From: Croceivirga thetidis
GTDB lineage: Bacteria; Bacteroidota; Bacteroidia; Flavobacteriales; Flavobacteriaceae
Direction: 5' to 3'
DNA length: 64,000 nt
Assembly (NCBI RefSeq): GCF_012272815.1
Contig: NZ_JAAWWL010000002.1
Coordinates: 712,280-776,279 of the forward strand
Every line of letters starts with the position of its first letter. Within the stretch, counting starts at the first letter, position 1. Of the stretch, positions 10,832-41,464 are shown piece by piece. Made by a program: the position numbers and the translations under genes. The notes beneath the pieces were generated by a model that made no database searches, was not told the DNA's origin, and was given only the letters and a program-made list of their open reading frames with translations.

Positions 10832-10995
10832 ATCAGAAAAATACGTTTTCTCAACAAGTCATTAACCGTTTATCTAAAAAATTGCATTTCACCTAAAAAT
10901 GAGAGGTCATTCATCGATTCGTTATACGATTTAATAAATGATAAAGTTATAATAGTCCCAAATCTTATTATAAATCAATTAAACTGACCTACTAA

Positions 10996-22153: not shown

Positions 22154-22157
22154 AGTT

Positions 22158-25100: not shown

Positions 25101-25175
25101 TAATTCTTGAGCACCAATTATTGAAACTCCCCCTGATATAAAAAAAACAACAAGTAAAATTTTTATAACCCTCAT
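22158..25175 (-). CDS. SusC/RagA-family TonB-linked outer-membrane transporter
   Basis: 1005 residues: signal peptide (MRVIKILLVVFFISGGVSIIG, cut after about 22), a carboxypeptidase-regulatory-like domain (about 25-100, GSVTDGDGIPLPDVNILLKE), the plug (about 110-225) with TPGVQITQVGGRAEAGVKIR, PLYVLDGIPL and ILKDASSAAIYGARGTNGVV, and a 22-strand-type barrel ending FTLGFNVDF. It imports an oligomeric substrate together with SusD using TonB energy. No glycoside hydrolase, lyase, sulfatase or peptidase gene is next to it, so the substrate class cannot be named. The N-terminal STN signalling domain is absent here. Confidence 0.95.
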   Translation of the reverse strand: MRVIKILLVVFFISGGVSIIGAQELLIKGSVTDGDGIPLPDVNILLKETSLGTKTDFDGNYFINAEVGQTLVFSYIGFSTIEVVLGNSTTLNITMRSETSRLDEVVVIGFGETSKVKLTDNVVSAKAEDIKEIPTSNFQTTLVGKTPGVQITQVGGRAEAGVKIRVRGVATITGSQEPLYVLDGIPLINDYEGLGGSPINPLIGLNPDDIESIDILKDASSAAIYGARGTNGVVLITTKKGKLGKTKISLNSSYGWSTPTNRREFLNTAEYVELFTEAGLNVGFTEDDMAGFFNIWADNEEDWRNSSVNTDWQNLALIDGGVQNLGVNISGGNAKTRFFLSTGYNKTNAIVRGNRSERYNLRINLDHNVSDRFAVGINSSISKTQISRLANDNQFATPLQAIAQIPFTRPFSEGGIVPNGNTLYYNFLFQEFNADLNANIWRNNLNLFGEYNVVNDLSFRSEIGYDLNNQTEDRFFGSLTEFASTNGFANALSIQNEKYVLNNYLTYDRTFSKVDFDVVLGMSFEHDNRRLQNTQGQDFPSDDLQTLASAGEIVGGSTTKDSFNFLSYFLRANTAIANKYLFKASVRIDGSSRFGNENRYGTFPAFSGGWVISNEEFLFEDKTLSNLKLRASWGLTGNAEIGNYASQSLFGAARTYNQNAGLSISVLGDPELSWEKTEQYNFGLDLGFFENRLNLSVDYYVKNTEGLLLNVPVPSTSGVNSVLRNSGDLENKGWEFVLDTKNVLNENFSWSTSFNLSTNKNEVKALPNGADIVSFQNIVREGETVSAYYLVEYAGVDPENGDALFYRNSELPDGNLDKSTTNNFGEASRIVTGNPFPTVLAGMTNNFNIGQFDLGITFQGQWGASIFNGGGQFQSSNADFFDNQTRDQLNRWQEPGDITNVPQARLFGANGTQQSTRYLQKADFIRLRNLSFGYSFPKEITKKFNIQRFRIYLTGLNVLTITDYTNGWDPESRGDFITNNNLNPNLEFYSAPPAKTFTLGFNVDF

Positions 25176-25604: not shown

Positions 25605-27140
25605 TCACCCCAACCAACCTTCTCTATCTAATGATCGGTACTGAATAGCCTCAGAAATATGGTTGCCAGTAACATTTCCAGATTGTTCCAAGTCCGCAAT
25701 GGTCCTTGCAACTTTAAGAATACGATCGTAAGCCCTGGCAGAAAGGTTTAGGCGTTCCATTGCACTCTTTAATAACTGAAGTGAGGCATCATCAAGTTTA
25801 CAGAACTCCCGAATCTGTTTTGTGCTCATTTGAGCATTGTAATGTACATTGTCGAATTCAGTAAACCTTTTGGTTTGTACCTCCCTCGCTGCGATTACCC
25901 GTTTCCGTATTTCCTGACTGCTTTCCCCTTTTCGTTCATCTGAGAGTTTTTCAAATGGAACTGGAGTTACTTCAATATGAATGTCTATTCGGTCTAACAA
26001 TGGGCCGGAAATCTTACCAAGATACCGCTGCATTTCAGCAGGTGAGGTTGTTACGGGAGCATCTGGATCATTAAAATAGCCCCCGGGACTGGGATTCATA
26101 CTTGCCACCAACATAAAACTACTCGGGTAAGTTACGGTAAAACGAGCCCGAGAGATGGTAACCTCCCTATCTTCCAATGGTTGACGCATTACCTCCAAAA
26201 CACTTCGTTGAAATTCAGGAAGCTCGTCCAAAAACAAGACCCCATTATGTGCTAAAGAAATCTCACCGGGTTGTGGATAGGCTCCCCCACCGACCAAGGC
26301 CACATCAGAGATAGTATGGTGCGGTGAACGAAAAGGCCGTTGACACATTAAACCCATATTTTTAACCTTGCCAACGACGCTGTGAATTTTGGTTGTTTCT
26401 AAAGCCTCATGAAGGGTCATTGGCGGTAGAATTGATGGCAGTCTTTTAGCCAACATGGTCTTACCTGCACCTGGCGGGCCAATTAAAATAATATTGTGTC
26501 CACCAGCAGCCGCAATTTCCATACAGCGTTTTATACTTTCTTGCCCCTTCACATCAGCAAAATCAAACTCAGGAAATTCAAGATTTTTATAGAACTCGGC
26601 ACGGGTATCTAAAATCGTGGGTTCCAGATTCTTTCCTTCCCCAAAAAAATCAATGACTTCTTCGATATTGTCTACGCCGTAAATTTCAAGTTTATTGACA
26701 ACGGCAGCCTCCTTGGCATTTTCTTTTGGTAGTATAAAGCCTTTAAAACCCTCTTTTTGAGCTTGGATTGCAATAGGTAGTGCACCTTTTATGGGTTGGA
26801 GGCTTCCATCCAAAGATAGCTCTCCCATAATAAGGTATTTATCAACTTCTTCAGCTTCTAGCTGACCTGAAGCTACCAAGATACCAACAGCCAATGTTAG
26901 ATCGTAGGCTGAACCTTCTTTACGCATATCGGCCGGAGCCATATTGATCGTAATTTTTTTACCAGGAATCTTATAACCATTGTTTTTTAAGGCTGCAGCA
27001 ATGCGATAATTACTTTCTTTAATAGCGTTGTCGGGCAATCCGACCAAATGGTAGCCAATACCTTTATCTACATTGACTTCAACAGTAATCGTAGTGGCAT
27101 CAACGCCAAAAACGGCGCTTCCGTAAACTTTGGTTAGCAT
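25605..27140 (-). CDS. YifB/ComM family Mg-chelatase-like AAA+ ATPase
   Basis: 511 residues: N-terminal ChlI-like domain ([18 protein letters not shown]-type segment at about 20-40, [17 protein letters not shown]), an AAA+ core with Walker [15 protein letters not shown] (about 219-232), the sensor/second motif region [17 protein letters not shown], Walker [12 protein letters not shown] and the ASMNPSPGG motif, and the C-terminal Mg-chelatase helical domain with [20 protein letters not shown]. In naturally transformable bacteria ComM is a hexameric helicase that promotes branch migration during integration of foreign DNA. It lies 43 bp after the end of the MG2 gene upstream, probably by chance. 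Confidence 0.93.
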
Positions 27141-27183: not shown

Positions 27184-28950
27184 CTATTCAACCGTAATAC
27201 TTCTACTAAAAGAAATGGGTTTGCCATAAGTAGTGAAACCATCTACAATAATCTCGAATTCACCGGTAATATCCGATGTAAAGAATTCGAATTGTAATTG
27301 ACCCTCATCAACTACGACGTTTGGTTTCCATAACAGTAACCTTCTATAATCGGGGATTCTATCAAAACTCCCTGTTTGATCATAAACTTGCGAAAAATAG
27401 TTTTTTTGAGGTATTGGTTTCTTTAAATCCAAAAGAACCCCATTCGGTGGACGATAATCCTTAAAATAATCTCCGTCAAAAGTTTCGACATACATAATAC
27501 CTTGGTATTCTTCGTTGCCCAGACGGAATTGATCTCTAATAAGACTTATTGATTTTATGTTTTTAGCGTTATAGTCTTTAACTGAATTATGGTCGGAAAC
27601 AAATACCCCATCAAACAGAACAATCGCGGGAAAATTATTGAGTTCTTCGTTGAACCGCTTAAAATCTTGTACAATTCGTATGAAATCATTGCCTGTAGGA
27701 TTTGGGCGATACCTAGCTATATTGATGATTTCAACCAAGGTTTCTTTGAACGTTTTAAACCGGGTATAATCGTCCAAATTAAAAACCATTGAATTCTCAC
27801 TGTTAAAAGGATTTTCCGGATTGGTTTGAAGTATGGAGTCCGGTTTCATTGCAAAATATTGATTCTCAACTTGGTTATGTATACTCCGCAATTTTATGGC
27901 CTCTGACATTTCTTTTTGAATCGTATATTCTCCAAATTCCAAATTATCCAAGTTTAATTTTCGGGATGGTTTTAGTTGAATATTTGCCTCCTTTTCTGTG
28001 CCTGTTGCTTGAAGTACAATGGAACCTGTTTGGTAATCTTCTCTGAGATAGGTATAAAAACCACCATTAAAATCCGTCAAAACGGATTTTAGCACAAACT
28101 GTTTACCAGGAAGTGAAACAACTACCGGAGTTTCAGAGATCGGTTTGCCGGTGATTTTATCTTTAACCGTTCCAATCAAAAGTTCCCCATCCCTTTCAGG
28201 CAAAAAAATGTGCCCTGACCTATCTAAGTTGGCAAGCTTGTCAACATTTAAATAGTCATTGGCAAAAGAAATGGCATTTGAATTTTTATTTGGATACAAC
28301 CCGTCCTTTTTCTGTACTCTAATGGAATAGGTGCCATACCCTAAATTTCCTTTGTAATTCTTTAAACCTAATTCTACTTTCTCGCGTTTTTGATAGTTGA
28401 ATTTCTTCAAAATTATTCCCACAACAGATGAATCCATCTTCAAACTTGATGGTGTTCCCTTTTCCTTATCACCAATCTTGTCTTGGGTTTTAGAAAGTAA
28501 CAATGACTGGTCAGCAGCATAAGGATTTATGATAATGAGGTCATCCTTGAATACCTGGGCCAATCCATTGTTCTTCATCCACTGCGTATATCCCAAAAGT
28601 TTATATACTCCGGATGGAATTTCAGTCGAAACAAAAAAGTCTCCCTGACCTAAACCATCGTTCAATCGAATTTTTTGTTCAAATAAATATTCCTTGTTCC
28701 CATTCACTAAAGCTAAATACCCGAGTTTACTTTGTGACGAAAGCCGGCTATTCTGGGCGCTGAAACATTGAAATGAGAAGTAAAGGTATTCGCCAGAAAA
28801 AACAACTGGCCCTGTATGGCTCACATAGACTTTTTCTTGAGGCAACTTTTTAAGAACTTCTAAATCCAATTCGGAATTCACTGTTTGTTGGGCCAAACTG
28901 CCCGTGAAAACGAAACATACTAAACCGAGGATTTTTACTATTTGCTTCAT
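27184..28950 (-). CDS. Exported MG2-like protein with plug-like segment (module 2)
   Basis: 588 residues from the ATG at 28950, which overlaps the stop of the DUF4249 gene by four bases (ATGA). Signal peptide MKQIVKILGLVCFVFTGSLAQ. Then LKKLPQEKVYVSHTGPVVFS and GEYLYFSFQC, the Bacteroidota version of an alpha-2-macroglobulin MG2 start, followed by beta-rich domains and a carboxypeptidase-regulatory-like unit (GELLIGTVKDKITGKPISET, about 240-300). Near 440-500 the run FPAIVLFDGVFVSDHN and IKSISLIRDQFRLGNEEYQG resembles the plug of a TonB receptor, but no barrel follows. It ends DGFTTYGKPISFSRSITVE. Exported or periplasmic; function unknown. Confidence 0.85.
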   Translation of the reverse strand: MKQIVKILGLVCFVFTGSLAQQTVNSELDLEVLKKLPQEKVYVSHTGPVVFSGEYLYFSFQCFSAQNSRLSSQSKLGYLALVNGNKEYLFEQKIRLNDGLGQGDFFVSTEIPSGVYKLLGYTQWMKNNGLAQVFKDDLIIINPYAADQSLLLSKTQDKIGDKEKGTPSSLKMDSSVVGIILKKFNYQKREKVELGLKNYKGNLGYGTYSIRVQKKDGLYPNKNSNAISFANDYLNVDKLANLDRSGHIFLPERDGELLIGTVKDKITGKPISETPVVVSLPGKQFVLKSVLTDFNGGFYTYLREDYQTGSIVLQATGTEKEANIQLKPSRKLNLDNLEFGEYTIQKEMSEAIKLRSIHNQVENQYFAMKPDSILQTNPENPFNSENSMVFNLDDYTRFKTFKETLVEIINIARYRPNPTGNDFIRIVQDFKRFNEELNNFPAIVLFDGVFVSDHNSVKDYNAKNIKSISLIRDQFRLGNEEYQGIMYVETFDGDYFKDYRPPNGVLLDLKKPIPQKNYFSQVYDQTGSFDRIPDYRRLLLWKPNVVVDEGQLQFEFFTSDITGEFEIIVDGFTTYGKPISFSRSITVE

Positions 28951-30185
28951 TCTTCCCAAAATTCAGGTACAACGTTACTTCCCAACTTTGTGCAATCCCC
29001 GCAAGTAGCAGGCCATGTGAAAAAAGCTCCATTGTCACCAAAAGCGTATGTCACCGCACCTAATTTTATCAAATCGATCAAGGGCGAATTACATGAGCTT
29101 CTACATTCGCCATCCTCACAACGAGGAGGAAATTCTGCGGTCAATCCCGGCATTCGTAATGCCTCTTCTCCACAATTCGTAGGATAAGGTGGTGGTAATT
29201 CACCTGGAAATAAGTCAGAATAATTAAAAAACAGTCTTTTTTTACTCACTGATGCCACTTCAAAATACCCGAGAACCATTTCCTCTTCATTGGATATTGA
29301 TTGAATATTACCCTCTAAAAATCCAGGCTGTACTTGAGAAAATATATTGTCGAAAGAAGAAAATTCGCCCAAACGTTGGTAAAATGAATATGCGTCCTGT
29401 GTTTGGGAAAATTGCGTTACCTCAATGCTATACCGGTTTGCGATAAAGTAGTTGTCACTTGAAAGAAAATGAAGCGAAAAATCTTCCACTACCCCAGAGA
29501 CCAAATCAGCTGTTGAACCTTGAATCAAAGCCGTGGATTTAGAAGAGCCAAAACAAGTTCTACGTTCATCTTCCCAAGGCACAAGGTCCACAGTAAAAGG
29601 GATTTCTTGACACGGCTGGTCTTGCACAATTCTAAATCTTACCGGCTGCCAATTGGGTGCTATTATTTTATAGGTTTCTTCGAACTCAAATCTAAAATAT
29701 GCTGGTTCAATTCCTTCTGTCAAGATATCCAAAAATATACCTACACCATCTTCACCAAAATCATTATCCAGTCTTTCAGCCTTAAAATTTTCAACTTCAT
29801 AGGCCTCTGGCATTGGAGTAGCACTAGAACTATATTCACGCCCATCGTTGGTTAAAACCTCTAGTGTATAACTTTTGCCTTGCTCTGCTGCGAATTCAAC
29901 ATTTGATGTATAGACGCCATCATTGGTTTCACTAAATTCAAATTGCCGTCCATCGCTATCGATTACAGTGACATTGGCCCCTATTTCTCTTGACGGCACC
30001 AAAGAAAGTCCAATAGCTCTTGACAGTAGCACTTCGTGTTGTTTGAATTCATCTGTAATAATTGCCTCAACAACTAAAAAATCTTCTGTGTTAGTAGTCT
30101 CAGGACGAAATTCCTCTAAACATGAAACCATGATAAAGGCGAAAATCGAAAAGCCCCATATGTAAAAACTAACATTCTTCTTCAT
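28947..30185 (-). CDS. DUF4249 family outer-membrane lipoprotein (module 2)
   Basis: 412 residues. Lipoprotein signal MKKNVSFYIWGFSIFAFIMV ending in SC with the lipid-modified cysteine at residue 22. The DUF4249 start EDFLVVEAIITDEFKQHEVL, then FRFEFEETYKIIAPNW and SVEVTQFSQTQDAYSFYQRL-type segments are shared by all four copies of the locus. The C-terminus carries CGDCTKLGSNVVPEFWEE and, before it, CEDGECRSSCNSPLIDLI. It begins 20 bp after the receptor and overlaps the MG2 gene by four bases. Partner lipoproteins of TonB receptors usually sit on the receptor like a SusD lid, but structural proof for DUF4249 is not assumed here. Confidence 0.9.
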   Translation of the reverse strand: MKKNVSFYIWGFSIFAFIMVSCLEEFRPETTNTEDFLVVEAIITDEFKQHEVLLSRAIGLSLVPSREIGANVTVIDSDGRQFEFSETNDGVYTSNVEFAAEQGKSYTLEVLTNDGREYSSSATPMPEAYEVENFKAERLDNDFGEDGVGIFLDILTEGIEPAYFRFEFEETYKIIAPNWQPVRFRIVQDQPCQEIPFTVDLVPWEDERRTCFGSSKSTALIQGSTADLVSGVVEDFSLHFLSSDNYFIANRYSIEVTQFSQTQDAYSFYQRLGEFSSFDNIFSQVQPGFLEGNIQSISNEEEMVLGYFEVASVSKKRLFFNYSDLFPGELPPPYPTNCGEEALRMPGLTAEFPPRCEDGECRSSCNSPLIDLIKLGAVTYAFGDNGAFFTWPATCGDCTKLGSNVVPEFWEE

Positions 30186-30205
30186 TCCTTCTACTACTTA
30201 CGAAT

Positions 30206-33010
30206 TCAAAATTTAAAATTATAGGTAATTGCCGGTACTGGGATTCCAAATATGGAACTCTGCAAGGCTTTCACTTGACCTTCTTCGGTCACAAAAAAAA
30301 CGGAATACGGATTATTTCTGCCTAAAACATTATATACCGAAAGGGTCCAGAAACTGTGCGCCAATTTATTTTTCTTGTGATTACCTTCCATATTGATTCC
30401 TAAATCCAATCGATAAAAATCTGGAATACGAAACTGGTTCCTGTTACTGAAGGCGACGAAATCAGAACCCCTAAACTCAAAAGTTGCCACGGGAAAAGTT
30501 ACCGGCCTTCCGGTTTGGTAGACAAAGTTTGCCGAAAAACTATAGCGCTTTGTCAACTTATAATTCGCTATCAAACTTATATCATGGGGTTTGTCAAAGT
30601 TTGAAGGGAAAAAGTCACCTCCATTAATTCGCTCTTCACTGAATGGGCTATCAAAACGGTAAAAGGAACGAGAATAAGTGTAACCCAACCATCCATTAAA
30701 CTTTCCCCGGTTCTTTTTAATTAGAAATTCGACTCCATAAGCTTTGCCATCACCTTGCAATACTTCTGTTTCAACATTCTCATTAAGAAATAAGTCAGCT
30801 CCCGTTTTAAAATCAAGCACATTGTCCAATCGCTTGTAATAGCCTTCAAGACTAAGTTCAAACATATTGTCATTAAAGTTTTTATAAAAACCCAAGGATG
30901 CCTGCAGACCTGTTTGTGGTTCAATATTCAAATCGGAAAGTTTCCAGGTGTCAATGGGAGAGACCGTGGTATTATTGGTTAAAGTATGTATGAATTGATA
31001 GGCGTTGTTAAAGCTGGCTTTGACAGAAAAATCAGGAGTGAACAAATAACGAAGTCCTAGCCTTGCTTCGGGTCCGCCATAAGTCTCGATTACATCGCCA
31101 CTACCATAACTAATGGTATCCCTAACCGCGTCTTCATTACGGGGCAATCCTTGTTGATATGTTCGCTGGGTACCAGAGCCTAAAGCGGCAAAAAATGCAT
31201 ATCGCAGACCGAGTTCCAAACTAAGTTTATTGGTAACCGCAATTTCATCACCAAGATATAGGGCTCCTTCAATCGCTCGTTCCGTATCAATAAATACGGG
31301 GGCGATATCCGACTCATTACCTTGTGGTTCAATACTCCCGGGATTTACCGAATAAAACTTTGTTGAAATTCCATAATCCAAATCATGTTTATCATTAAGC
31401 CTCGTACTCAATTTATACTTGAGTTCGGTTTCGTTGATACTATAGTTCAAATCAAAATCAGTATTGGATTCCCCGTCAAAATCAATTCCAAAACGATAAT
31501 CGCTATTTGCCAATAGTAAGGCCGCAGTGGTTTTTTCACTATGCCTATGGTTCCATTTAATTGACCCTAGTCTATTCGTATAATTGTAGAGCGAATCAGA
31601 TGTAATACTAAAATCATCCCTACTGAAATAGGCAGTAGCCCTGATTTCGCTGTTTTCATTGAAACGATGATGATATTTGGCGATGACGTCAATAAAAGAG
31701 GCTTGGCTTTTGTTCAAGGACTCTTCATCCAATGCTCTTAGTATCCAATCTGCGTAGGCCCCCCGCCCACCAACGATTATTGAAGAGGTGTCCTTTTTTA
31801 CTGGAATTTCCAAGGCAAGGTTTCCGGTAACAGGACCTATGGAACCTTCCCCTGAAAATTTTTCCACATTACCATTTTTGGTTCTGATATCGAATACGGA
31901 GGATAAACGGCCGCCAAATTCAACGGGTATACTTCCCTTGTATATATCGGCTCCTTCAGTTGTAAAGGGATTTAATGCTTGAAAAATGCCGAAAAAATGA
32001 GTGGGATTATAAATTACCGCATCATCTAACAAGACCAAATTTTGATCAGTCTTACCACCACGTACATTCAAGCCCGTAGCTCCTTCTCCAGCTGAAGAAA
32101 TGCCTGGTAAAGCTTTGGCCACTTGTAATAAATCACGCTCACCAAGTACCAATGGTATATTCTTAGATTCTTCTAGATTAATAGTTTCCGTGCCAGTACT
32201 GGTTTCTTCAACATTGCTTACGGCATCTGCTTCAACCGTGACTTCTTCCAATTCCTGTAAGCCTTCTTCCATCAGCAGATTGAGGATTCCATCATTATAT
32301 ATAACAATTTCACGTTCCATATTCTCAATACCCATGGCCGAAGCCGAGATTATGTTATAGCCTGCTGGTAATTCAATGGCATAGTTTCCATTCTCATCGC
32401 TTATAACCACTTGACCAGAACCTTTTGACCGAATCGCTAAATCTGGAATCGCTTCATTTGTTCTTCGATTGGTGACTTTTCCTTTGAGCATGTAACTTGA
32501 TTTTAAGTTGTTGGTATTTGCCCGTCCGATTCTGGTGAGAGGAAACTGTCTTTTTTCTTGTTCTGATTTTTTAAGAATAAAGGTTGGTCGAATACGCTTT
32601 TCGGTAATTAATTCATTGCCAGCTGAAATAGCCGAATCCGGTCTTCCAAAGAAATAGCTTGGTAACTCATCATAAATAATGGTATTCCGTAGTAGGATTA
32701 CCCTTTTTTCATTTTCGAGTATGTAAAAATTAAGATTGGTGTTTAAGAGTAATTTATCAATTGTGGGGCCGATACCATCTTCTTGAATATTTGCAGGAAC
32801 CTTCTTGTTTACAATCCAATCTTCATTAAAGAAGAAGCTATAGCCCGTATCAGATTCCAATTGCAACAAGGCAACTTTTAGTGAAAGACTGTCCACGGCT
32901 TTGACACTATCTTCCTGTGCATTAACTCCTTGCACAAAAAATAATAGTAGGCAAAAAAATAGTAATGCGAAAATAGGAGAAAGAACCTCCCTTCTTCGTT
33001 CTTTTTGCAT
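30206..33010 (-). CDS. TonB-dependent receptor with N-terminal STN domain (module 2)
   Basis: 934 residues from ATG 33010 (MQKERRREVLSPIFALLFFC, signal through VNAQ); the upstream ATG at 33052 would delay the signal peptide. An STN domain follows (about 38-100, LKVALLQLESDTGYSFFFNE), then a carboxypeptidase-regulatory-like domain (LKGKVTNRRTNEAIPDLAIR), the plug with ALPGISSAGEGATGLNVRGG and VLLDDAVIYNPTHFFG, and a barrel ending PAITYNFKF. It is closely similar to the receptor at 38.7-41.5 kb, almost identical across the plug. It is 135 bp after the MG2 gene of module 1, the largest gap in the locus. Confidence 0.93.
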   Translation of the reverse strand: MQKERRREVLSPIFALLFFCLLLFFVQGVNAQEDSVKAVDSLSLKVALLQLESDTGYSFFFNEDWIVNKKVPANIQEDGIGPTIDKLLLNTNLNFYILENEKRVILLRNTIIYDELPSYFFGRPDSAISAGNELITEKRIRPTFILKKSEQEKRQFPLTRIGRANTNNLKSSYMLKGKVTNRRTNEAIPDLAIRSKGSGQVVISDENGNYAIELPAGYNIISASAMGIENMEREIVIYNDGILNLLMEEGLQELEEVTVEADAVSNVEETSTGTETINLEESKNIPLVLGERDLLQVAKALPGISSAGEGATGLNVRGGKTDQNLVLLDDAVIYNPTHFFGIFQALNPFTTEGADIYKGSIPVEFGGRLSSVFDIRTKNGNVEKFSGEGSIGPVTGNLALEIPVKKDTSSIIVGGRGAYADWILRALDEESLNKSQASFIDVIAKYHHRFNENSEIRATAYFSRDDFSITSDSLYNYTNRLGSIKWNHRHSEKTTAALLLANSDYRFGIDFDGESNTDFDLNYSINETELKYKLSTRLNDKHDLDYGISTKFYSVNPGSIEPQGNESDIAPVFIDTERAIEGALYLGDEIAVTNKLSLELGLRYAFFAALGSGTQRTYQQGLPRNEDAVRDTISYGSGDVIETYGGPEARLGLRYLFTPDFSVKASFNNAYQFIHTLTNNTTVSPIDTWKLSDLNIEPQTGLQASLGFYKNFNDNMFELSLEGYYKRLDNVLDFKTGADLFLNENVETEVLQGDGKAYGVEFLIKKNRGKFNGWLGYTYSRSFYRFDSPFSEERINGGDFFPSNFDKPHDISLIANYKLTKRYSFSANFVYQTGRPVTFPVATFEFRGSDFVAFSNRNQFRIPDFYRLDLGINMEGNHKKNKLAHSFWTLSVYNVLGRNNPYSVFFVTEEGQVKALQSSIFGIPVPAITYNFKF

Positions 33011-33088
33011 AGCAATAGCGATTGAATTAGCCAATTCTAAGTTAACAAACAATAATCGAAGAATAAAGGATTGAGCGGAAGAATGACC

Positions 33089-33112
33089 ACAAATTTGTCT
33101 AGGTTATCCTAG
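33089..33112. promoter_or_regulatory. Two adjacent short palindromes upstream of receptor 2
   Basis: ACAAATTTGT (33089-33098) is directly followed by CTAGG-TTAT-CCTAG (33099-33112). They sit 79 bp upstream of the receptor start at 33010, in the only sizeable gap of the 14-kb locus. This would be the place for an internal promoter or operator. The motifs are short and could be chance. Confidence 0.3.
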
Positions 33113-33145
33113 TATTTTGTTCATATATCCAAAAGGCCATCTGGT

Positions 33146-34900
33146 TTACTCAATCCAAATTGATTTTGAAAAATATATGGGTTTTCCATAGGACGTGAAT
33201 CCATCTAAAATAACCTCATATTCCCCTTCTAAATCAGATGTGAAAAACTCAAAGTCCAATTCATTTCCTTCTACTGAGACATGAGGCTCCCATAATAACA
33301 AACGACGATAATCTGGAATTCTATCGTAGGTTGAGTCAATTTCCGAATAGCGTTGTTTAAAGTAATTTTTATTGACAACTGGTTTTGTGATTTCTGCGGT
33401 AACACCATTCTTCGCTTGATACGTTTCGTAATAATTACCTTCAAATGTTTTTACCAATAGCATACCTTGATAGTCTTTATCGGCCATTCTAAATTGGTCT
33501 CGTATTAAGCTAATGGATTCTATCTGACGGGCATCAAAATCCCTAATTTCTTCATGGTTAGGAATAAAGACACCATCTATCAAAACTATGGCAGGATAGT
33601 CATTGTAGTCTTCTGTAACTTTTTCGAAATCCTGCAAAATTCGAATGTAGTCCCTTTCATTACCGTTATTTCGATAGCCAGCTTTATTTAATATCTCAAC
33701 CAACGTTTCTTCAAAAGTTTTGAATCTGGTGTAATCGTCTAAATAAACGACCTCGGGAATGCCGCCATCAAAAGGGTCAATTGGGTCTCCTAGTAAAATG
33801 GAGTCCGGTTTGGCCGCAAAAAATTGATTTTCAAGCTGGTTGTCAATGCTGCGTTTTCTAATAAGTTCCAGATATTCTTTTTTTAACTTAAAATCATTGA
33901 AACTTAATTTCGAAACATCCAGTTCTGGTAACTTTTTTAGCTCAACTTTGTAATCACCTTCTGAATTATCAACTTGCAGAACTGCATTTGACTGTTGGTA
34001 GTCTTTCTTTAAATAGGAATAAAAATTGCCTTCGGTATCGGTCTTAGCAAATTTTAATAAGAATTCACCTCCCGGGATGGAAACCACTACCGTTTCACCG
34101 GTGACTGGTTCGTTTGAATTTTTGTCGGTCACCGTTCCATAAAGTAATTCTCCACGTTGTTCAGGTAAGAATATATTATCACCCAATTGATTTTCAATTG
34201 TCTTCTCAACATTAAAAAAAGCATTTGCAAATTCTATGGAACTATTTTCGCTATCTGACTGAATACCTTCCTTTTTTTGAACTCGAATGGAATAGTTGCC
34301 GTAACCAGACGGCCCTTTGTAGTTGCGTAATTTAAGGTTAATGGATTCTCGTTTGGAATAATTTGTTTTATCAAATAGCAAGGAAATGGTAGCTGAGTCC
34401 ATTTTGACTTCCCGTTCACTAATTAATGCTTCTTCAGGTACTTCTGTCAAAAATTTAGCCTGTTCTACCTGATACGGGTTTATGACAACCAAATCGTCTT
34501 GAAACACTTGTGTAATACCATTGTTCTTCATCCAATTTGAATAGCCCAAAAGCTTGTAATTGCCAGAAGGAATGTCTGTACTTACAAAGAAATCGCCTTT
34601 GCCCATTCCCTTGTCAAGCTTTATTTTTTGTTCTAGTACAATTTCTTTGGCTTCATTGACCAAAGCAACGTAAGCAACAGTACTGATATTACTTGCTTTA
34701 TTCGTTTGGGTATTGAAACAATACAATGCGTAATAAAGGTATTCACCCGAAAACAAAACAGGACCGGAATGATGCAGGTATACCTTTTCTTGGGGTAGTT
34801 TTTTTAAGCTTTCCAACTCATCATTACCTCTTACCACATATTGTGAAGTAGCCTGTAATATGGCTGCAAACAATATTAAAATGGTTACTAATCTTCTCAT
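33146..34900 (-). CDS. Exported MG2-like protein with plug-like segment (module 1)
   Basis: 584 residues: signal peptide MRRLVTILILFAAILQATSQ, then LKKLPQEKVYLHHSGPVLFS and GEYLYYALYC (MG2-like start), several beta domains, a regulatory-like unit GELLYGTVTDKNSNEPVTGE (about 240-300), and the plug-like PAIVLIDGVFIPNHEEI with IESISLIRDQFRMADKDYQG near 440-500, without a barrel. It ends DGFTSYGKPIYFSKSIWIE, nearly the same as its paralogue 27184-28950; overall the two look about half identical by eye. It starts 10 bp after the third lipoprotein gene. Probably exported to the periplasm or outer surface; no catalytic motif or thioester motif is seen. Confidence 0.85.
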   Translation of the reverse strand: MRRLVTILILFAAILQATSQYVVRGNDELESLKKLPQEKVYLHHSGPVLFSGEYLYYALYCFNTQTNKASNISTVAYVALVNEAKEIVLEQKIKLDKGMGKGDFFVSTDIPSGNYKLLGYSNWMKNNGITQVFQDDLVVINPYQVEQAKFLTEVPEEALISEREVKMDSATISLLFDKTNYSKRESINLKLRNYKGPSGYGNYSIRVQKKEGIQSDSENSSIEFANAFFNVEKTIENQLGDNIFLPEQRGELLYGTVTDKNSNEPVTGETVVVSIPGGEFLLKFAKTDTEGNFYSYLKKDYQQSNAVLQVDNSEGDYKVELKKLPELDVSKLSFNDFKLKKEYLELIRKRSIDNQLENQFFAAKPDSILLGDPIDPFDGGIPEVVYLDDYTRFKTFEETLVEILNKAGYRNNGNERDYIRILQDFEKVTEDYNDYPAIVLIDGVFIPNHEEIRDFDARQIESISLIRDQFRMADKDYQGMLLVKTFEGNYYETYQAKNGVTAEITKPVVNKNYFKQRYSEIDSTYDRIPDYRRLLLWEPHVSVEGNELDFEFFTSDLEGEYEVILDGFTSYGKPIYFSKSIWIE

Positions 34901-34910
34901 ATTTTCACTT

Positions 34911-36221
34911 TTATTCCTCCCAAAAATCTGGTGGAGTGTTTTGACCTATCAACGTGCAATCACCGCAAACTCTGGCAACAAATACATCTATACCAGGACA
35001 TACTCCGATATTATCAATATTTTCTCCGACATAATTTATTAAACCATCGTTTACCCTTTCAATTACAGAAGGGGGGCATGAGTTGGCGTTCAATCCTGTA
35101 AAACAATACGAAACATGTGATTCGGGCGCAGATTCGAGCGTACACGGAAATGGATAATCCGGTAAAGGTTCACCAGGGAAAAAATCGTTGAACTCGATAT
35201 AGATACGTTGTTCAGAAACAGTACTGGCATCTACATAGCCCAAAACCGTTTCTTGTGTACCGTCAGACCTCGTAACATTAGCTGCCAAAGGTCCTGGTTG
35301 TACTTGCGAGAATAGGTTGTCATTTTCTGAAAATTCTTTTAAGGCATTATAAAAATCGAATGAAGCTGAATTTTGTACAAGTTGCCTAACCAAAATGCTG
35401 TATCGGTGTGCCGTAACATAATTATCTTTTGGTATGAACCTTACCGGGAATCTTTGGACGGAATTTCCCGAGGTTTGTACTTCACTTTGAATCACCGTAT
35501 TTGATTTTACTGTGCTATAACAAATTTGATTCTGAACCTCACGCGGTAAAATTTCCAAATCGTAGGTTGGAACAGGTAGTGCGCATGGGTCATAATTAGT
35601 AAGTACATAATCTTCCTCGCGCCAGAATGGTGCTACAATCTTATAAGTTTCATCATAGGTGTACCTGTAATTTGGAGAGCCCGAGCCAATGGGCTCACTA
35701 TCTGCAAAAATTTGAATTCCTTCCTCTCCTAAATCAGTTGTAATTCGTTCAGCATAGAGATTTGCCAGACGAGAAGTTGCAGGTAAACTAATAGCATCGG
35801 ATTCATAATCTATATTGGATGAGGTAGAAATCTGCAATCGATATTCAACCCCTTGTTGCAGTGCAAAACTTTGGGTTGAAGAATATACACCCTGTTGTTC
35901 CTCAAAAAAATCAAAGTTGTTCCCATCGGACCCAATCAATACCACACGTGCGTTTTCTTCGTATTCAACAGAATCCTGTAGGCCCAAACCTAAAGGTCGA
36001 AACCTGAAATAAGTCGTATCCGTTTCAATATCCAAGCGGGCTACTGAACGTGTTAAAAATACTTGTTGCGTTTCTAAATTATCTGTGAACGTGGCCTCGA
36101 CCACTAACATTCCCCCATTTTCATTAGCAACATTTTCGATATCAAGTTCCTCTACACAAGAACTAATCGAAACCAAAACGCCGAGAAACCAAAACAACTT
36201 TATGTACCGATTTTTCTTCAT
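34911..36221 (-). CDS. DUF4249 family outer-membrane lipoprotein (module 1, third copy)
   Basis: 436 residues from the ATG at 36221, which shares one base with the preceding stop (TAATG). Signal MKKNRYIKLFWFLGVLVSIS followed by SC, so the cysteine is at residue 22. The DUF4249 landmarks MLVVEATFTDNLETQQVFLT, YDETYKIVAPFW and VTAHRYSILVRQLVQNS are present, and the C-terminus is CGDCTLIGQNTPPDFWEE. Compared with its siblings the region before the C-terminal motif has additional cysteines (FPCTLES, SYCFTG, SCPPS, GVCPG). It follows copy 2 without a gap, so translation is coupled. Confidence 0.9.
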   Translation of the reverse strand: MKKNRYIKLFWFLGVLVSISSCVEELDIENVANENGGMLVVEATFTDNLETQQVFLTRSVARLDIETDTTYFRFRPLGLGLQDSVEYEENARVVLIGSDGNNFDFFEEQQGVYSSTQSFALQQGVEYRLQISTSSNIDYESDAISLPATSRLANLYAERITTDLGEEGIQIFADSEPIGSGSPNYRYTYDETYKIVAPFWREEDYVLTNYDPCALPVPTYDLEILPREVQNQICYSTVKSNTVIQSEVQTSGNSVQRFPVRFIPKDNYVTAHRYSILVRQLVQNSASFDFYNALKEFSENDNLFSQVQPGPLAANVTRSDGTQETVLGYVDASTVSEQRIYIEFNDFFPGEPLPDYPFPCTLESAPESHVSYCFTGLNANSCPPSVIERVNDGLINYVGENIDNIGVCPGIDVFVARVCGDCTLIGQNTPPDFWEE

Positions 36222-37435
36222 TATTCCGTCCAAAATTCAGGTAGTTGATTACTGCCCAGAGCTGTACAATCTCCACAAGCCCTTCGCGCTGTTAAAAATG
36301 GACCTCCAGATTCCACTTGCCCCACATTATCCCTTACATAAACAAAATCCCCACTATCTATTGCGTCCAATAAAGGTGAGCCCCCTCCTGGCAAAATCTC
36401 TTGTGGCGCACCTAAAAAACTGCAACTTATTGCATAAGGTGGTAGTTCATCATCACCAAAAAAGTCAGTATAGTTAAAAAACAACCGTTTGTTTGACTCA
36501 CTGCTCACATCAAAAAAACCTATTACCAATTCATCTATATCTTGGGTGTTTTTGATATTTCCTTCAATAAAACCAGGTTGAATACCACTAAACACGTTTT
36601 CATTGGTAGACTGCTTTTCTAAGGTTTTATAATAAGAAAATGAAGCTTGATTTACAGCAAATTGTTTAACCAAAATACTGTAGCGATGAGAAATGATAAA
36701 ATCATCTTTAGGAATAAAACGCACCATAAAGCGATTTAAATTTCCCGTTAGAACATCACCGACCTCATTTAAGATTATTTCGTTTGATTTTTGCGTTCCA
36801 TAACATACCCTTTTCTCTTCCTGTTTGGGTACTAATCCAAATTCATAAGGGGGTGTGCGATCTAAAACAACCATATCGAATGGAGACCATAGAGGGGCTA
36901 TAACTTTATAGGTTTCTTCAAATTGGTATCGAAATGTGGCCAATTGTCCATTTTCGACTTTAGAATTTATGAATATTCCTATCCCCTCTTGCCCTTCATC
37001 AGTTGTTATTCTTTCAGCATAGATGCTATCAATTTGAGAATTGTTTCTTAATCTTTGGAAAGTTGACTCATAATTCTTGTTGCCAATTTGAACCTGTAAT
37101 TGGTAATTGACATTAGAGACAGCTGCAAACTTAAGCTGTGAAACATATTTACCAGATTCGGTCTCCTCAAAAAGAAACTCCAATCCATTTCCATCAATTA
37201 TTCTTACTGTGGCATTCTGAATAGAATTTTGAACGGCATCAAAATTGAAAGCACGAATTTTAGAAAGAAGTACTTCTTGCTCTTCAATTATGTCTGTAAG
37301 ATTGGCCTCAACGACCAGAACATCCTGCAAATCACTATTCGTTAAGGTATCTTCTGGAATTTCAAATGGTTCAACACATGATGCCAACAACAAGCCTAAA
37401 GAAATGAACAATATGTTAGAAAGCACTTTTTTCAT
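36221..37435 (-). CDS. DUF4249 family outer-membrane lipoprotein (module 1, second copy)
   Basis: 404 residues, the shortest of the four. Signal MKKVLSNILFISLGLLLASC with lipobox LLASC and the cysteine at residue 20. DUF4249 landmarks: VLVVEANLTDIIEEQEVLLS, FRYQFEETYKVIAPLW, DFIISHRYSILVKQF, and the C-terminal CGDCTALGSNQLPEFWTE. The start overlaps the stop of copy 1 by four bases (ATGA) and its stop shares a base with the start of copy 3, so the three genes form one translational chain. Confidence 0.91.
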   Translation of the reverse strand: MKKVLSNILFISLGLLLASCVEPFEIPEDTLTNSDLQDVLVVEANLTDIIEEQEVLLSKIRAFNFDAVQNSIQNATVRIIDGNGLEFLFEETESGKYVSQLKFAAVSNVNYQLQVQIGNKNYESTFQRLRNNSQIDSIYAERITTDEGQEGIGIFINSKVENGQLATFRYQFEETYKVIAPLWSPFDMVVLDRTPPYEFGLVPKQEEKRVCYGTQKSNEIILNEVGDVLTGNLNRFMVRFIPKDDFIISHRYSILVKQFAVNQASFSYYKTLEKQSTNENVFSGIQPGFIEGNIKNTQDIDELVIGFFDVSSESNKRLFFNYTDFFGDDELPPYAISCSFLGAPQEILPGGGSPLLDAIDSGDFVYVRDNVGQVESGGPFLTARRACGDCTALGSNQLPEFWTE

Positions 37436-38679
37436 TCTTCAGACCAAAATTCAGGTACCACATTACTTCCAAGTTTGGTGCAATCACCGCAAGGCGATGG
37501 TAAAGTGAAGAAAGGGCTTAAAAAATCATCTTCTTTTTCTGCTGCAAATACCAAAGTACCTGCAAGAATTTGATCTATAAGTGGAGAATTGCAATTGCCA
37601 TCACAAATTCCTTCCGCAAAACAATGGTAAGCTTCAGGCCATAGCCTTGGGTTTCCTACAGTTTCACAATTTACCGCATAGGGTGGTAGTTCTTCACCAG
37701 GAAATAAATCCTCATAATTGAAATAAACCCGTTTGGAACTAAAAGAACTTAATTCAAAGAAGCCAATGACGTCGACGGAAGAATTATTTTTAGCCGAAAT
37801 ATTTCCATCAATCAAACCTGGCTGTACTTGAGAAAAAACCAAGTCTGAAGACGAAAAATCGTCCAAACTTTCATAAAACGAAAAGGCATCAACACTTTGG
37901 GAATATTGGTTTACCAAAATGCTGTACCTATGGGAAATAATATAGTTATCACGACTAAGAAAACGTATGCTTTTGACAATCTCATTTTCAACTTGGTCTT
38001 CTGTTGAAGCCAAAATTATGTCTCTTGAACTGTAGGATGCGTAACATGTCTTTGTCTCCTCTACCCTAGGTTTTATTTCAACGACAAACGGATCAGGAAA
38101 ACACGGTTCATATCGAACTACATCAAATTCAAAAGGGTCCCAATTAGGAGCAATAATCTTGTAGGTCTCTTCATACTCATACCTAAAAAAGTTTGGATCA
38201 CCATTTGTTGAAGAATTTTTCACATAAATTCCGACACCTTCTTCATCAAAACCATTGAATTCCCTTTTAAATTCAATATCACCTATTTCCACTTTTCGGG
38301 GTAAGAATTCCTGTTCGGATCCAAAAGAACTCCCATCGCTAAGGGTAATGTTCAAACTGTAGCCTTCGGAAGGATTGATTACCAGAGCTGATTCACTAAC
38401 ATACGTTCCAGGTTGGGTTTCAAGAAAATTAAACCTTATACCCGAACTGCCCTCCAAAAACACCTCTGCCCCCGTTTCGAAAACAGGTTCTTCTTCAAGT
38501 TGGAAAGATCGGCTCAATATGATTTCTTGGTTTATGGGCCTGTCCGAAATTCTCGCATCAACCACAAGTAATGACTCCGTCTGTTCAATACTTGGAGGTT
38601 GTATTTCTTCTATACATGATTGCGCAATGACCAGAGTCCAAGCAATACTTATTTTAAATATGTTTTTTATCCCACGCAC
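37432..38679 (-). CDS. DUF4249 family outer-membrane lipoprotein (module 1, first copy)
   Basis: 415 residues using the GTG at 38677-38679, 4 bp after the receptor stop; the longer frame from 38757 runs into the receptor gene and has no signal sequence. From the GTG the protein begins MRGIKNIFKISIAWTLVIAQ, then SC, a plausible lipoprotein signal with cysteine 22. Landmarks: LLVVDARISDRPINQEIILS, FRYEYEETYKIIAPNW, YIISHRYSILVNQY, NCNSPLIDQI and the C-terminal CGDCTKLGSNVVPEFWSE. Of the four copies it is closest to the single lipoprotein of module 2 (28947-30185), with which it shares the NSPLID and VVPEFW segments. Confidence 0.88.
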   Translation of the reverse strand: MRGIKNIFKISIAWTLVIAQSCIEEIQPPSIEQTESLLVVDARISDRPINQEIILSRSFQLEEEPVFETGAEVFLEGSSGIRFNFLETQPGTYVSESALVINPSEGYSLNITLSDGSSFGSEQEFLPRKVEIGDIEFKREFNGFDEEGVGIYVKNSSTNGDPNFFRYEYEETYKIIAPNWDPFEFDVVRYEPCFPDPFVVEIKPRVEETKTCYASYSSRDIILASTEDQVENEIVKSIRFLSRDNYIISHRYSILVNQYSQSVDAFSFYESLDDFSSSDLVFSQVQPGLIDGNISAKNNSSVDVIGFFELSSFSSKRVYFNYEDLFPGEELPPYAVNCETVGNPRLWPEAYHCFAEGICDGNCNSPLIDQILAGTLVFAAEKEDDFLSPFFTLPSPCGDCTKLGSNVVPEFWSEE

Positions 38680-38683
38680 AAAA

Positions 38684-41464
38684 TCAAAATTTAAAGTTAT
38701 ACGTAATTGAGGGTACTGGGATTGCAAAAATTGAGCTTTGCAACGCCCTAACTTCACCGTTTTCGGTTACAAAGAATACGGAATAGGGATTATTTCTACC
38801 CAAAACGTTGTAAACCTGAATAGTCACAAAACTGTGGGCCAGTTTATTCTTTTTGTGGTTGCCTTCGATGTTTATGCCCAAATCCAAACGATAAAAATCT
38901 GGAATGCGGAACTGGTTTCGTTCACTGAAGGCTACAAAGTCGGCATTGTTGAAACGAAAAGTACCAATAGGATAGGTTACTGGGCGACCCGTCTGATAAA
39001 CGAAATTCATTGAAAAACTGAACCTTCTTGTTAAACGGTAATTAGCAATCAAGCTAACATCATGAGGCTTGTCAAAATTTGAAGGGAAAAACTCTCCATT
39101 ATTAATACGTTCGCTACTAAATGGGCTATCAAAACGATACAATGACCTTGAATAGGTATAGCTTAACCACCCATTAAAGTCTCCCCTATTTTTCTTCAGT
39201 AAAAACTCCACACCATAGGCTTTTCCATCACCTTGTAAAATCTCGGTTTCGACATTCTCATTTAAAAAGAGATTAGCACCCGTTTTAAAATCGAGTACAT
39301 TCTGCATGCGTTTGTAATAGCCCTCGATACTGGCTTCGTACATGTTGTCATTAAAGTTTCGATACAAACCCAAAGCCGCTTGATAGCCTGTTTGGGGTTC
39401 AATGTTCAAATCAGACAATTTCCAAGTGTCAATTGGCGAGACCGTAGTATTGTTGGTGAGGGTATGCAGAAATTGATAAGAATTATTAAAGCTTGCCTTA
39501 ATGGAAAAATCTGGCGTAAATAGATAACGAGCAGAAACACGCGCTTCTGGTCCGCCATAGGTTTCTATAACTTCTCCGCTATCATAAGTTATGGTGTCAC
39601 GAACCGTGGATTCGTTTCTTGGAAAACCCTCTTCATAAGTTCTTTGGGTACCGTCACCCAATGCTGCAAAGAAGGCATAACGTACGCCAAGATTTACCAA
39701 GAGTTTATCGGATAATTTGATTTCGTCGCCCAGAAACAACGCTCCTTCCACTGCCCTTTCTCGAGCAATCTCGATGTTCTGAATATCGGATTCCGAGCCC
39801 GCAGGTTCAATACTGCCAGGATTTACACTATAGAATTTACCTGAAAAACCATAATCGAAGCTATGTTTGTCATTTAAGCGGGTATTTAATTTGTACCGAA
39901 GTTCGGTTTCATTAATAGCATAGTCCAACTCAAAATCACGGTTACCTTCCCCATCAAAATCAATTCCGAAACGATAGTCACTATTCCCCGCTGTTAGTAC
40001 ACCATTTGTTTTTTCACCCAAACGATGTGCCCATCTAGTGGAAAACAGTCGGTTACTATAATTATAAAGTGAATCTGAGGTAATACTGAAATCATCCCTG
40101 CTGAAATAGGCGGTACCACGAACTTCACTGTTCTCATTGAATTTGTGGTGGTATTTTAAAATTCCATCAAAAAAAGACGCCTGACTGTTGTTCAATGATT
40201 CATCGTCTAAAGATCTCAAAATCCAATCGGCATAAGCACCCCTAGCTCCTACAATTACTGAAGATGCTTCTTTTTTTAGCGGGATTTCCAAGGCTAAATT
40301 TCCGGTTACTGGACCAATGGAACCTTCACCTGATAATTTTTCAACATTGCCATTTTTGGTTTCTATATCAAATACGGAAGATAAACGGCCACCAAATTCC
40401 ATAGGTACTGAACCTTTATAGATGTTCACACGTTCCGTCGTAAAGGGATTCAAAGCTTGAAAAATGCCAAAAAAATGGGTTGGATTGTAAATTACAGCAT
40501 CATCCAATAATACCAGATTCTGGTCGGTTTTGCCTCCTCTTACATTCAAACCGGTGGCGCCCTCTCCGGCAGAAGATATACCTGGTAATGCCTTTGCCAC
40601 CTCTAATATGTTTCGTTCACCAAGTACCAATGGAATATTCTTTGATTCTTCTGCATCGATTTGTTCTGTTCCTGTCTGTGAATCCACCACGTTGCTTACC
40701 GCATCTGCTTCAACAACAACTTCATCAAGCTCTTCCAAACCCTCTTTAAGTCTTAAATTGAGTCTGCCATCATTGTACATGATTACTTCTCGTTCTGTAC
40801 CCTCAATACCCATTGCCGAGGTTGTCAATAAATTGTAGCCTGCAGGAATTTGAATTTGATAATTACCCTGCTCGTCGGTAACGGCTACCCTGTTTGAGCC
40901 TTTTATTTGTATTGCCAAGTCTGGAATAGCCTCGCCTGTTCTGGCATTCAAGATTTGTCCAGATAAATTGTAAAATGATCTTAGGTTATCTCGGTCAGTC
41001 TTTCCAATTCTTACTGGTGGGTATCTTCTTTTGCCTTCAGACTTTGGAACATCATAAAAAGAAGGTGGAGGAATATTTTGATTGATACGATTTTGTTGCT
41101 CGGCCAATTGAAGTGAATCGGTTTCATCAACAAAACCAAATGGTAGCTCATCATATACCAAACTATTTTGTTGAAGAAAAATTCGCTTTTCACTATCCCT
41201 AACAAAGTAATTTAATTCCGTTTCGTTTAAAAGTTGGTCGAGAATGGTAGAAAGGGAATCTGCATCGAAAGTTCCATTCACATATTTATTATTAACCCAA
41301 TCATCAAGGAAGAAGAATTGATACCCCGATGATTTTTCTAATTGTAAAATGGCAGATTTCAATGGAATACTATCAAACTCCATTTTAGCAGGAACATCCT
41401 GCCCTCTAACAAATACACCCAATAAAATAAGGGTACATACCAGTAGATTGGTCGGTTTAAACAT
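38684..41464 (-). CDS. TonB-dependent receptor with N-terminal STN domain (module 1)
   Basis: 926 residues: signal peptide MFKPTNLLVCTLILLGVFVRG, STN domain (about 29-95, IPLKSAILQLEKSSGYQFFF), a proline-rich linker, a carboxypeptidase-regulatory-like domain (about 167-240), the plug (about 255-400) with LPGISSAGEGATGLNVRGGK and VLLDDAVIYNPTHFFG, and a barrel ending PSITYNFKF. The STN domain is used by some receptors to contact a FecR-type anti-sigma factor, but no FecR or ECF sigma gene is in the window. It heads the operon receptor > three DUF4249 lipoproteins > MG2 protein. Confidence 0.94.
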   Translation of the reverse strand: MFKPTNLLVCTLILLGVFVRGQDVPAKMEFDSIPLKSAILQLEKSSGYQFFFLDDWVNNKYVNGTFDADSLSTILDQLLNETELNYFVRDSEKRIFLQQNSLVYDELPFGFVDETDSLQLAEQQNRINQNIPPPSFYDVPKSEGKRRYPPVRIGKTDRDNLRSFYNLSGQILNARTGEAIPDLAIQIKGSNRVAVTDEQGNYQIQIPAGYNLLTTSAMGIEGTEREVIMYNDGRLNLRLKEGLEELDEVVVEADAVSNVVDSQTGTEQIDAEESKNIPLVLGERNILEVAKALPGISSAGEGATGLNVRGGKTDQNLVLLDDAVIYNPTHFFGIFQALNPFTTERVNIYKGSVPMEFGGRLSSVFDIETKNGNVEKLSGEGSIGPVTGNLALEIPLKKEASSVIVGARGAYADWILRSLDDESLNNSQASFFDGILKYHHKFNENSEVRGTAYFSRDDFSITSDSLYNYSNRLFSTRWAHRLGEKTNGVLTAGNSDYRFGIDFDGEGNRDFELDYAINETELRYKLNTRLNDKHSFDYGFSGKFYSVNPGSIEPAGSESDIQNIEIARERAVEGALFLGDEIKLSDKLLVNLGVRYAFFAALGDGTQRTYEEGFPRNESTVRDTITYDSGEVIETYGGPEARVSARYLFTPDFSIKASFNNSYQFLHTLTNNTTVSPIDTWKLSDLNIEPQTGYQAALGLYRNFNDNMYEASIEGYYKRMQNVLDFKTGANLFLNENVETEILQGDGKAYGVEFLLKKNRGDFNGWLSYTYSRSLYRFDSPFSSERINNGEFFPSNFDKPHDVSLIANYRLTRRFSFSMNFVYQTGRPVTYPIGTFRFNNADFVAFSERNQFRIPDFYRLDLGINIEGNHKKNKLAHSFVTIQVYNVLGRNNPYSVFFVTENGEVRALQSSIFAIPVPSITYNFKF

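Follow-up and report, generated by a model that had tools for sequence, protein, structure and literature searches.

An apparently undescribed operon of TonB-dependent receptor, DUF4249 lipoprotein and macroglobulin-like protein genes scattered through Bacteroidota

Introduction

In Bacteroides thetaiotaomicron, a TonB-dependent transporter (TBDT) is encoded beside a DUF4249 lipoprotein (BT2172/BT2173), and disrupting either is reported to have similar consequences (PMC11003636). Here we analysed a 64,000-nucleotide stretch of the Croceivirga thetidis genome (contig NZ_JAAWWL010000002.1, positions 712,280 to 776,279; called the window below), in which genes for TonB-dependent receptors (R), DUF4249 lipoproteins (D) and an MG2/plug-like protein (M) stand next to one another in two modules. 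A fourth gene, X, which encodes an exported protein of about 245 amino acids (aa), was met in related modules elsewhere. The R-D-M operon is apparently undescribed and occurs here and there across a broad range of Bacteroidota. In the open-access literature (few subscription journals, no bioRxiv), we found nothing that joins an MG2 domain or macroglobulin with TonB-dependent in Bacteroidetes, and nothing on an STN domain together with TonB-dependent, FecR and anti-sigma in Bacteroidetes. The same literature gives no DUF4249 function beyond the one TBDT pairing, which agrees with a first-pass annotation of this DNA, made from the sequence alone, that receptors with DUF4249 partners are not known to have a defined substrate.

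With pairs of the BT2172/BT2173 type, the window shares a TonB-dependent receptor with plug and barrel that adjoins a DUF4249 lipoprotein, but the 19 simple TBDT-DUF4249 pairs fetched in this work have a shorter receptor and a short, tail-less D, and gave no M, X or STN match. With SusC/SusD it shares the TonB-dependent barrel, the CarboxypepD-like and plug domains and a lipoprotein partner. However, the receptors of the first and second modules, R1 and R2, reached 38.2 and 33.9 bits against the SusC/RagA model TIGR04056, whose cut-off is 368.25, and their partners belong to PF14054 (DUF4249) and matched no SusD model, though a nearby gene (20801-22180) does match. We know of no counterpart of M or X in SusCD systems. 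FecA/PupB, which work with FecR/PupR, are TonB-dependent receptors with an N-terminal STN-type part, for which the module receptors have an STN-like candidate that stays below threshold in Pfam, and STN is the receptor part that contacts FecR. The module of the window has no FecR, and across the modules M goes with STN; one relative (L182) has FecR next door. Bacterial alpha-2-macroglobulin and complement C3/C5 have the macroglobulin fold in common with M, but M lacks CxEQ, is shorter, carries CarboxypepD-like and plug-like parts and is encoded with a receptor. The best Protein Data Bank (PDB) chain for R1 was 9gbc (E 1.7e-13, residues 162-370), a siderophore piracy TBDT of gut Bacteroides (PMC13142918). 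The similarity of R1 to this chain is confined to the CarboxypepD/plug part. We take 9gbc to be XusA, and we know of no M in that system.

Results

Linkage and spread of the module

To see how often the three genes travel together, each M was counted once; loci below L048, L154-L181 (short flanks) and L192-L207 (no M) were left out, and 15 orphan loci (16 M), which have neither R nor D, were set aside before the count, with the M tree as a check on this split. R and D were adjacent in 136 of the 141 unique M, and the other five lie at contig ends. Gaps between genes were short, with 394 of 439 at most 30 bases, 159 overlaps and a median of 3 bases. The first-pass annotation had been right to see a real repeated operon, and R, D and M stay linked far beyond the C. 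thetidis genome. Gene order was R-D-M in most modules, and R-M-D or a trailing D was found in a few. One D was present in 89 of the 136 modules, two in 29, three in 11, four in 6 and six in 1; the six D genes of L092 (1-11755) are the highest number seen. The proposal that a version with three lipoproteins forms a separate machine was therefore rejected, because the number of D runs from 1 to 6, with one in most modules, and M is present either way.

In 149 genomes of the same family, the window's own included, 70 had an M-like match at E 1e-3 and about 26 a full-length M. Twenty of the 25 other genomes with full-length M were fetched, and R, D and M were side by side in all 20. In a scan of named genomes, loci were taken from the best 80 of 584 confirmed relatives, among them Allomuricauda, Robiginitalea, Maribacter, Aquimarina, Lutibacter and Winogradskyella; D adjoins M in 79 of these 80 and R is present in 77, and the exceptions (L074, L091, L118) are cut by contig ends. 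The L074 record is titled Algicola (assigned to Pseudomonadota), and its M is of flavobacterial type and nests among Allomuricauda-like sequences, so the organism label is probably misleading.

Across the phylum, M was found at E 1e-30 in 24 of 345 genomes, and across the class, matches at 1e-40 occurred in 43 of 395 genomes with orphan M-like genes counted in. Outside the family M is longer, and all nine uncut loci carry R-D-M. Forty further loci from the two surveys contained the module in 25 cases and an M-like gene without R or D in 15. Besides the window's own family, the module was found in nine family codes (f3, f4, f8, f9, f10, f54, f65, f101 and f106). An annotated Parabacteroides distasonis record has the order X-R-D-M, with M labelled "hypothetical protein" and X recognised by its own profile. 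Conservation of the receptor-DUF4249-MG2 order outside this genome had been named beforehand as the test of the idea, and the linkage in the best-80 loci, the nine non-family loci and 25 of the 40 further loci passed it. In one short contig (L191, 22-7692), three M-like genes stand in tandem behind a D gene.

The two modules of the window

All eight open reading frames (ORFs) lie on the minus strand at 27184-41464, in the order R1 > D1a > D1b > D1c > M1 for module 1 and R2 > D2 > M2 for module 2, as the first-pass annotation had described them. In the list below, Pfam results are given with E values where available.

38684-41464, minus strand: R1, TonB-dependent receptor, 926 aa, recognised by Pfam, with an STN-like part from our own hidden Markov model (HMM) and sub-threshold Pfam; clusters with M-linked receptors (support 99); STN-like about 22-100, CarbopepD_reg_2 167-251, Plug 282-359, TonB barrel 434-886.
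37432-38757, minus strand: D1a, DUF4249 lipoprotein (PF14054 E 1.5e-35) with a CGDC...PEFW tail; the listed start is a GTG at 38757, and an in-frame GTG near 38679, directly ahead of the lipobox, would be a better fit.
36221-37435, minus strand: D1b, DUF4249 lipoprotein (PF14054 E 8.8e-30), with an ATGA overlap with D1a.
34911-36233, minus strand: D1c, DUF4249 lipoprotein (PF14054 E 1.4e-29); the likely start is the ATG of the TAATG that overlaps the D1b stop.
33146-34900, minus strand: M1, putative exported macroglobulin/plug hybrid, 584 aa, from AlphaFold, fold matches and hhalign; MG2 about 30-142, CarboxypepD-like about 243-335, plug-like about 405-495, C-terminal macroglobulin (MG) about 505-584.
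30206-33052, minus strand: R2, TonB-dependent receptor, 948 aa from TTG, architecture as in R1 (Pfam).
28947-30185, minus strand: D2, DUF4249 lipoprotein (PF14054 E 4.1e-37), AlphaFold predicted local distance difference test (pLDDT) 93.
27184-28959, minus strand: M2, putative exported macroglobulin/plug hybrid, 591 aa from TTG, 52% identity to M1.

CarbopepD_reg_2, Plug and TonB barrel were above cut-off in both receptors, and DUF4249 was found in all four D (E 1e-29 to 4e-37), while M1 and M2 gave no Pfam match above cut-off. Both gene overlaps that had been noted earlier are present in the sequence, ATGA joining D1a to D1b and TAATG joining D1b to D1c. Between M1 and R2 there are 93 bp, counted to the listed TTG start of R2; promoter and terminator scans over the region gave nothing better than shuffles, and the region may form one or two transcription units. 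Scans for tRNA genes and Rfam families gave none or nothing above chance.

Between the modules, identity is 71% for R, 52% for M and 32-45% for D (each D against the first D). A recent tandem duplication was rejected on the basis of the trees, in which M2 and R2 are sisters of Robiginitalea marina genes and not of M1 and R1 (support 98 for M2 in the M tree). By this phylogeny, the two copies in C. thetidis are old paralogues, each with its own D and M. A role in anti-phage defence was also rejected, since PADLOC reported 0 families at E 0.001 for six proteins (five of the eight window proteins and one X).

The whole genome gave seven DUF4249 matches. Besides the four of the window, there is a single match at C2:494140 and a pair at C2:876727-878372. 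These three belong to plain systems, in which a receptor of about 800 aa is followed by one or two short D (285-300 aa) without M. Full-length M occurs in the window only. Three weaker M matches are orphan MG2-plug hybrids of 781-792 aa (L210 6042-8420; L211 4861-7206; L212 5826-8195) away from receptor-D pairs; close to one of the three, a TonB-dependent receptor is encoded on the opposite strand, and the L212 orphan is above the Pfam cut-offs for both MG2 and Plug.

Around the modules, a Penicillin amidase family gene (41535-43931, PF01804, E 3.7e-196) lies about 70 bp upstream of R1 on the same strand. M2 is followed by an ORF at 25605-27140, and beyond it, at 20801-25175, a SusD family gene (20801-22180; PF07980, PF14322) adjoins a receptor with CarboxypepD and plug domains.

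M as a predicted macroglobulin/plug hybrid

The AlphaFold model of M1 (44 sequences) had a mean pLDDT of 86 and a predicted template modelling score of 0.84. Its fold matches were complement C5 at Z 17.7 and E. coli alpha-2-macroglobulin at Z 16.5 and 16.3, with 211-230 residues aligned in these three; the top 24 rows had Z 16-17.7, most at 2.6-4.3 A over 207-240 residues, and the best Foldseek E value was 1.8e-12. These values are well above the Z of 8 under which, according to the tool's note, a match may be a common arrangement. A PDB sequence search with M gave weak complement and alpha-2-macroglobulin matches, and one of three long M relatives passed the Pfam MG2 cut-off. M also aligned at full length with the orphan paralogues (profile probability 100, E 2e-53), and the plug part of the orphan that passes the Pfam MG2 and Plug cut-offs aligns with M at about 405-495. 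Residues 243-335 of M resemble the receptor CarboxypepD domain (probability 90). The earlier description of the M proteins as MG2- and plug-like is thus supported by fold matches, the orphan alignment and Pfam MG2 in one long relative.

The CxEQ thioester motif was found in 0 of 136 linked M, and the linked M are 542-878 aa long, compared with 1122-1597 aa for the bacterial alpha-2-macroglobulin chains among the fold matches. M has a signal-peptide-like start, and no lipobox-like pattern was found in 83 of 84, so it is taken as probably periplasmic. Modelled in this way, M is an exported protein of macroglobulin fold with a plug-like region and without the thioester motif. In the M tree, linked M (120) and orphan M (19) fell on two sides of one branch, with a support of 85, which is below the 95 mark, and 0 of 500 shuffles.

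STN-like domain and three kinds of DUF4249 system

The term "STN-receptor" in the first-pass annotation held in part. In Pfam the STN part stays below the cut-offs, with PF16344 FecR_C at E 7.6e-5 in R1, no match in R2, and PF07660 STN at E 0.0004-0.002 in three of four relatives. Our own HMM for the STN-like part, which was built from M-linked receptors and is biased towards them, matched 128 of the 133 M-linked receptors. In R-D loci without M, 2 of 37 receptors matched, and both of these loci are cut on the M side. The five misses among M-linked R were three cut receptors, one from Parabacteroides (917 aa) and one from L257. Independent of the HMM, the plug motif started at a median residue of 306 in M-linked and 173 in M-less receptors.

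Twenty control loci around short D contained a receptor-D pair in 19, and M or X in 0 of 20. In these 19 simple pairs the receptor had 784-811 aa (866 in one) and D 269-308 aa, without CxDC tail, M, X or STN match. A third layout, with D ahead of R, was observed in L192-L201 and L205, where D is mostly 374-400 aa and mostly precedes a receptor of about 802-818 aa, without M; its tail pattern is C...RT.I.P.GW, and its receptors fall into a clade of their own. In a receptor tree from which the N-terminal parts were left out, 37 sampled M-linked receptors formed a group separate from 21 simple-pair and 13 D-before-R receptors (support 99), and the simple-pair and D-before-R groups had 100 each. 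Judged by these sequences, the M-type is set apart from the common TBDT-DUF4249 pair by its STN-like domain, by M, by a long D bearing the CxDC...PxFW tail and, in most modules, by X.

At one locus, L202, the receptor lacks STN and D carries the CGDC tail, and the gene after D is on the opposite strand, so that no M stands next. A search of this genome, which is 86% complete, gave no M. Upstream of R, the remaining 600 bases of contig contained no X, and a weak X-family match was the only one elsewhere in the genome; the lack of X carries little weight, because close relatives with M are also without X. In the receptor tree, the L202 receptor nests within the M-linked Flavobacteriaceae group on a long branch. 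STN and M seem to have been lost together there while the D tail was kept, which points to M as the STN partner and to docking of the tail on R. Docking of M on the D tail is weakened as a candidate, since L202 keeps the tail without M.

Lipoproteins and the fourth gene

The AlphaFold model of D2 (76 sequences) suggests two tandem immunoglobulin (Ig)/FN3-like sandwiches and a C-terminal extension ending in CGDC...PEFW. Its fold search gave generic Ig/FN3 matches only, the best at Z 7.4 and all under Z 8, so no structural relative is claimed, and a PDB search by sequence gave no match for the D profile. CxDC was present in 146 of 148 M-linked D. When D pairs from the same locus were compared, identity was 0.73 in the tail and 0.53 in the Ig part, and the tail was higher in 114 of 130 pairs; this comparison is conditional on CxDC, a requirement that fixes three of the roughly 18 tail positions in advance. 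The short D of simple pairs have another C-terminal ending, and in the D-before-R type the tail is related yet distinct. A shared tail on divergent bodies is what would be expected of a common docking element. The idea of D as range extenders matched by changing receptors was unsupported, with plug and barrel being the most conserved parts.

Among 138 D with a lipobox by a crude pattern, at least two acidic residues were found at +2 to +6 in 89 and none in 34, which suggests surface export of D. These residues after the lipid cysteine are similar, though not identical, to the Bacteroidetes export signals of PMC5080379. DUF4249 was present in 119 of the 149 same-family genomes.

X lies directly upstream of R in 93 of 136 modules, at all nine uncut non-family loci (the X of L188 being cut by the end of the stretch), in 22 of the 25 modules of the further loci and in Parabacteroides. 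It has an exported look, with no lipobox in 44 of 47, and six X proteins tried gave no Pfam match above cut-off. The X profile gave E <1e-53 in seven genomes with X beside R, whereas the genome of the window had no match at E 0.01. Thus the window modules are X-less versions, X could not have been seen in the window, and it cannot be essential. At G090:C5:64734-66831 three weak X-family members stand in tandem away from the module, so X is part of a larger family.

FecR and the module

TonB-dependent transducers normally act through FecR-type anti-sigma regulators (PMC11637429, PMC7186176). Pfam found no FecR among the eight window genes. In the genome of C. thetidis there are two FecR, at C2:1541893 and C1:1684331, far from the window at C2:712280-776279. 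Among 30 module genomes, the nearest FecR on the contig of a module was about 59 kb away (G018), and the FecR search gave no match in two genomes that are 99-100% complete, so the module need not depend on FecR, although in some genomes the two may be linked.

Discussion

We propose that (X)-R-D-M encode one outer-membrane TonB-dependent uptake complex per cluster, in which M would partner STN in the periplasm and the D would be exchangeable lids at the surface; we give this reading slightly less than an even chance. Linkage, domains, model folds and co-occurrence come from sequence, comparison and models, and from these we infer the locations, the contacts and the direction of transport. D would form the ligand-catching lid of R at the cell surface and would dock on R, not on M, through the common CxDC...PxFW tail, so that several divergent D could serve one receptor. 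M would dock in the periplasm on the STN part of R, in the place held by FecR anti-sigma factors in cell-surface signalling, and would thereby couple transport through R to capture, hand-over or gating by M. X would be a dispensable periplasmic helper. In 88 operons of the short-M type, mean identity was highest for plug (0.73) and barrel (0.62) and lower for the first D (0.39), M (0.36) and STN (0.34), and the conservation of plug and barrel suggests a single kind of cargo throughout the family. A bolder version is that of a widespread, undescribed outer-membrane machine, in which the complement-like macroglobulin/plug hybrid would have taken over from FecR as the partner of STN in the periplasm and what was a contact for signalling would have become a mechanical one (cargo capture or gating), with interchangeable Ig-fold lipoproteins plugging into the same receptor via the shared cysteine-rich tail; we put this forward tentatively, as a possibility that more probably fails than holds.

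Several observations weigh against the proposed uptake complex. The module is patchy, and the majority of surveyed genomes are without it. FecR was present somewhere in 28 of the 30 module genomes, and at L182, outside the family, a true FecR gene with both FecR Pfam families (9744-10985) follows M at a distance of about 100 bases, on the other strand. In the 88 operons, the distances of STN and M are correlated beyond the barrel (partial r 0.34), but the value is also 0.32 for plug-M and 0.26 for STN-D, so this support is weak. The STN-M co-occurrence may reflect the ancestry of one clade only, the STN HMM carries the bias described above, and one M-less receptor (L301, 866 aa) has an intermediate N-terminus with the plug motif starting at 248. 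The co-loss of L202 is one case, found on a long branch and in a metagenome-assembled genome that is 86% complete, with only 600 bases of contig upstream of R. Direct profile comparison of the plug-like region of M with the R plug gave no match (probability 0.55%). Finally, 34 of the 138 lipobox-bearing D have no acidic residue at +2 to +6, and X was not found in the genome of the window.

One rival account is a signalling receptor, in which STN would act in trans on a FecR encoded elsewhere and M and D would serve uptake only. This agrees with the known way of working of transducers, with the two FecR of C. thetidis and the 28 of 30 module genomes, and with the FecR beside L182. On the other side are the distance of about 59 kb to the nearest FecR on a module contig, the two nearly complete module genomes without a match, and the fact that STN tracks M, and we consider the explanation unlikely.

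An ordinary TBDT-DUF4249 nutrient pair, with M and X outside the complex, would fit the two-gene pairs that stand alone in 19 of 20 control loci, and BT2172/BT2173 are reported to act together (PMC11003636). However, across ten family codes M, STN and the D tail occur as one close set, and the simple pairs showed none of the three, which makes this an improbable account of the M-type as well.

M could instead be a protease trap or shield like complement or alpha-2-macroglobulin, fed or anchored by R and D. Its fold, with Z up to 17.7 for complement and 16.5 for the bacterial protein, is what one would expect of such a trap, but the linked M have no CxEQ, are shorter by the ranges given above and are tied to a receptor wherever flanks are complete, so we hold this to be quite unlikely. 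We regard it as very unlikely that the module serves export or assembly at the outer membrane, with M acting as a chaperone in the periplasm that loads clients into or through R: lipoprotein canopies are described on Bacteroidota outer-membrane machines (F. johnsoniae BAM, PMC12611786) and M and X look exported without a lipobox (83 of 84 and 44 of 47), but R retains the plug, barrel and CarboxypepD domains of TonB-dependent receptors, and the terms mg2, macroglobulin, carboxypeptidase and DUF are absent from the main text of that report.

DUF4249 is common in the family and hardly studied, with a single paper in the open-access literature searched that mentions it. Sorting these proteins into simple pairs, the D-before-R type and the STN/M type resolves a vague annotation into three systems that can be tested. 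Should M prove to be the partner of STN, this would be a second use for STN beside sigma signalling, and a route that couples a TonB-dependent receptor to a protein of macroglobulin fold.

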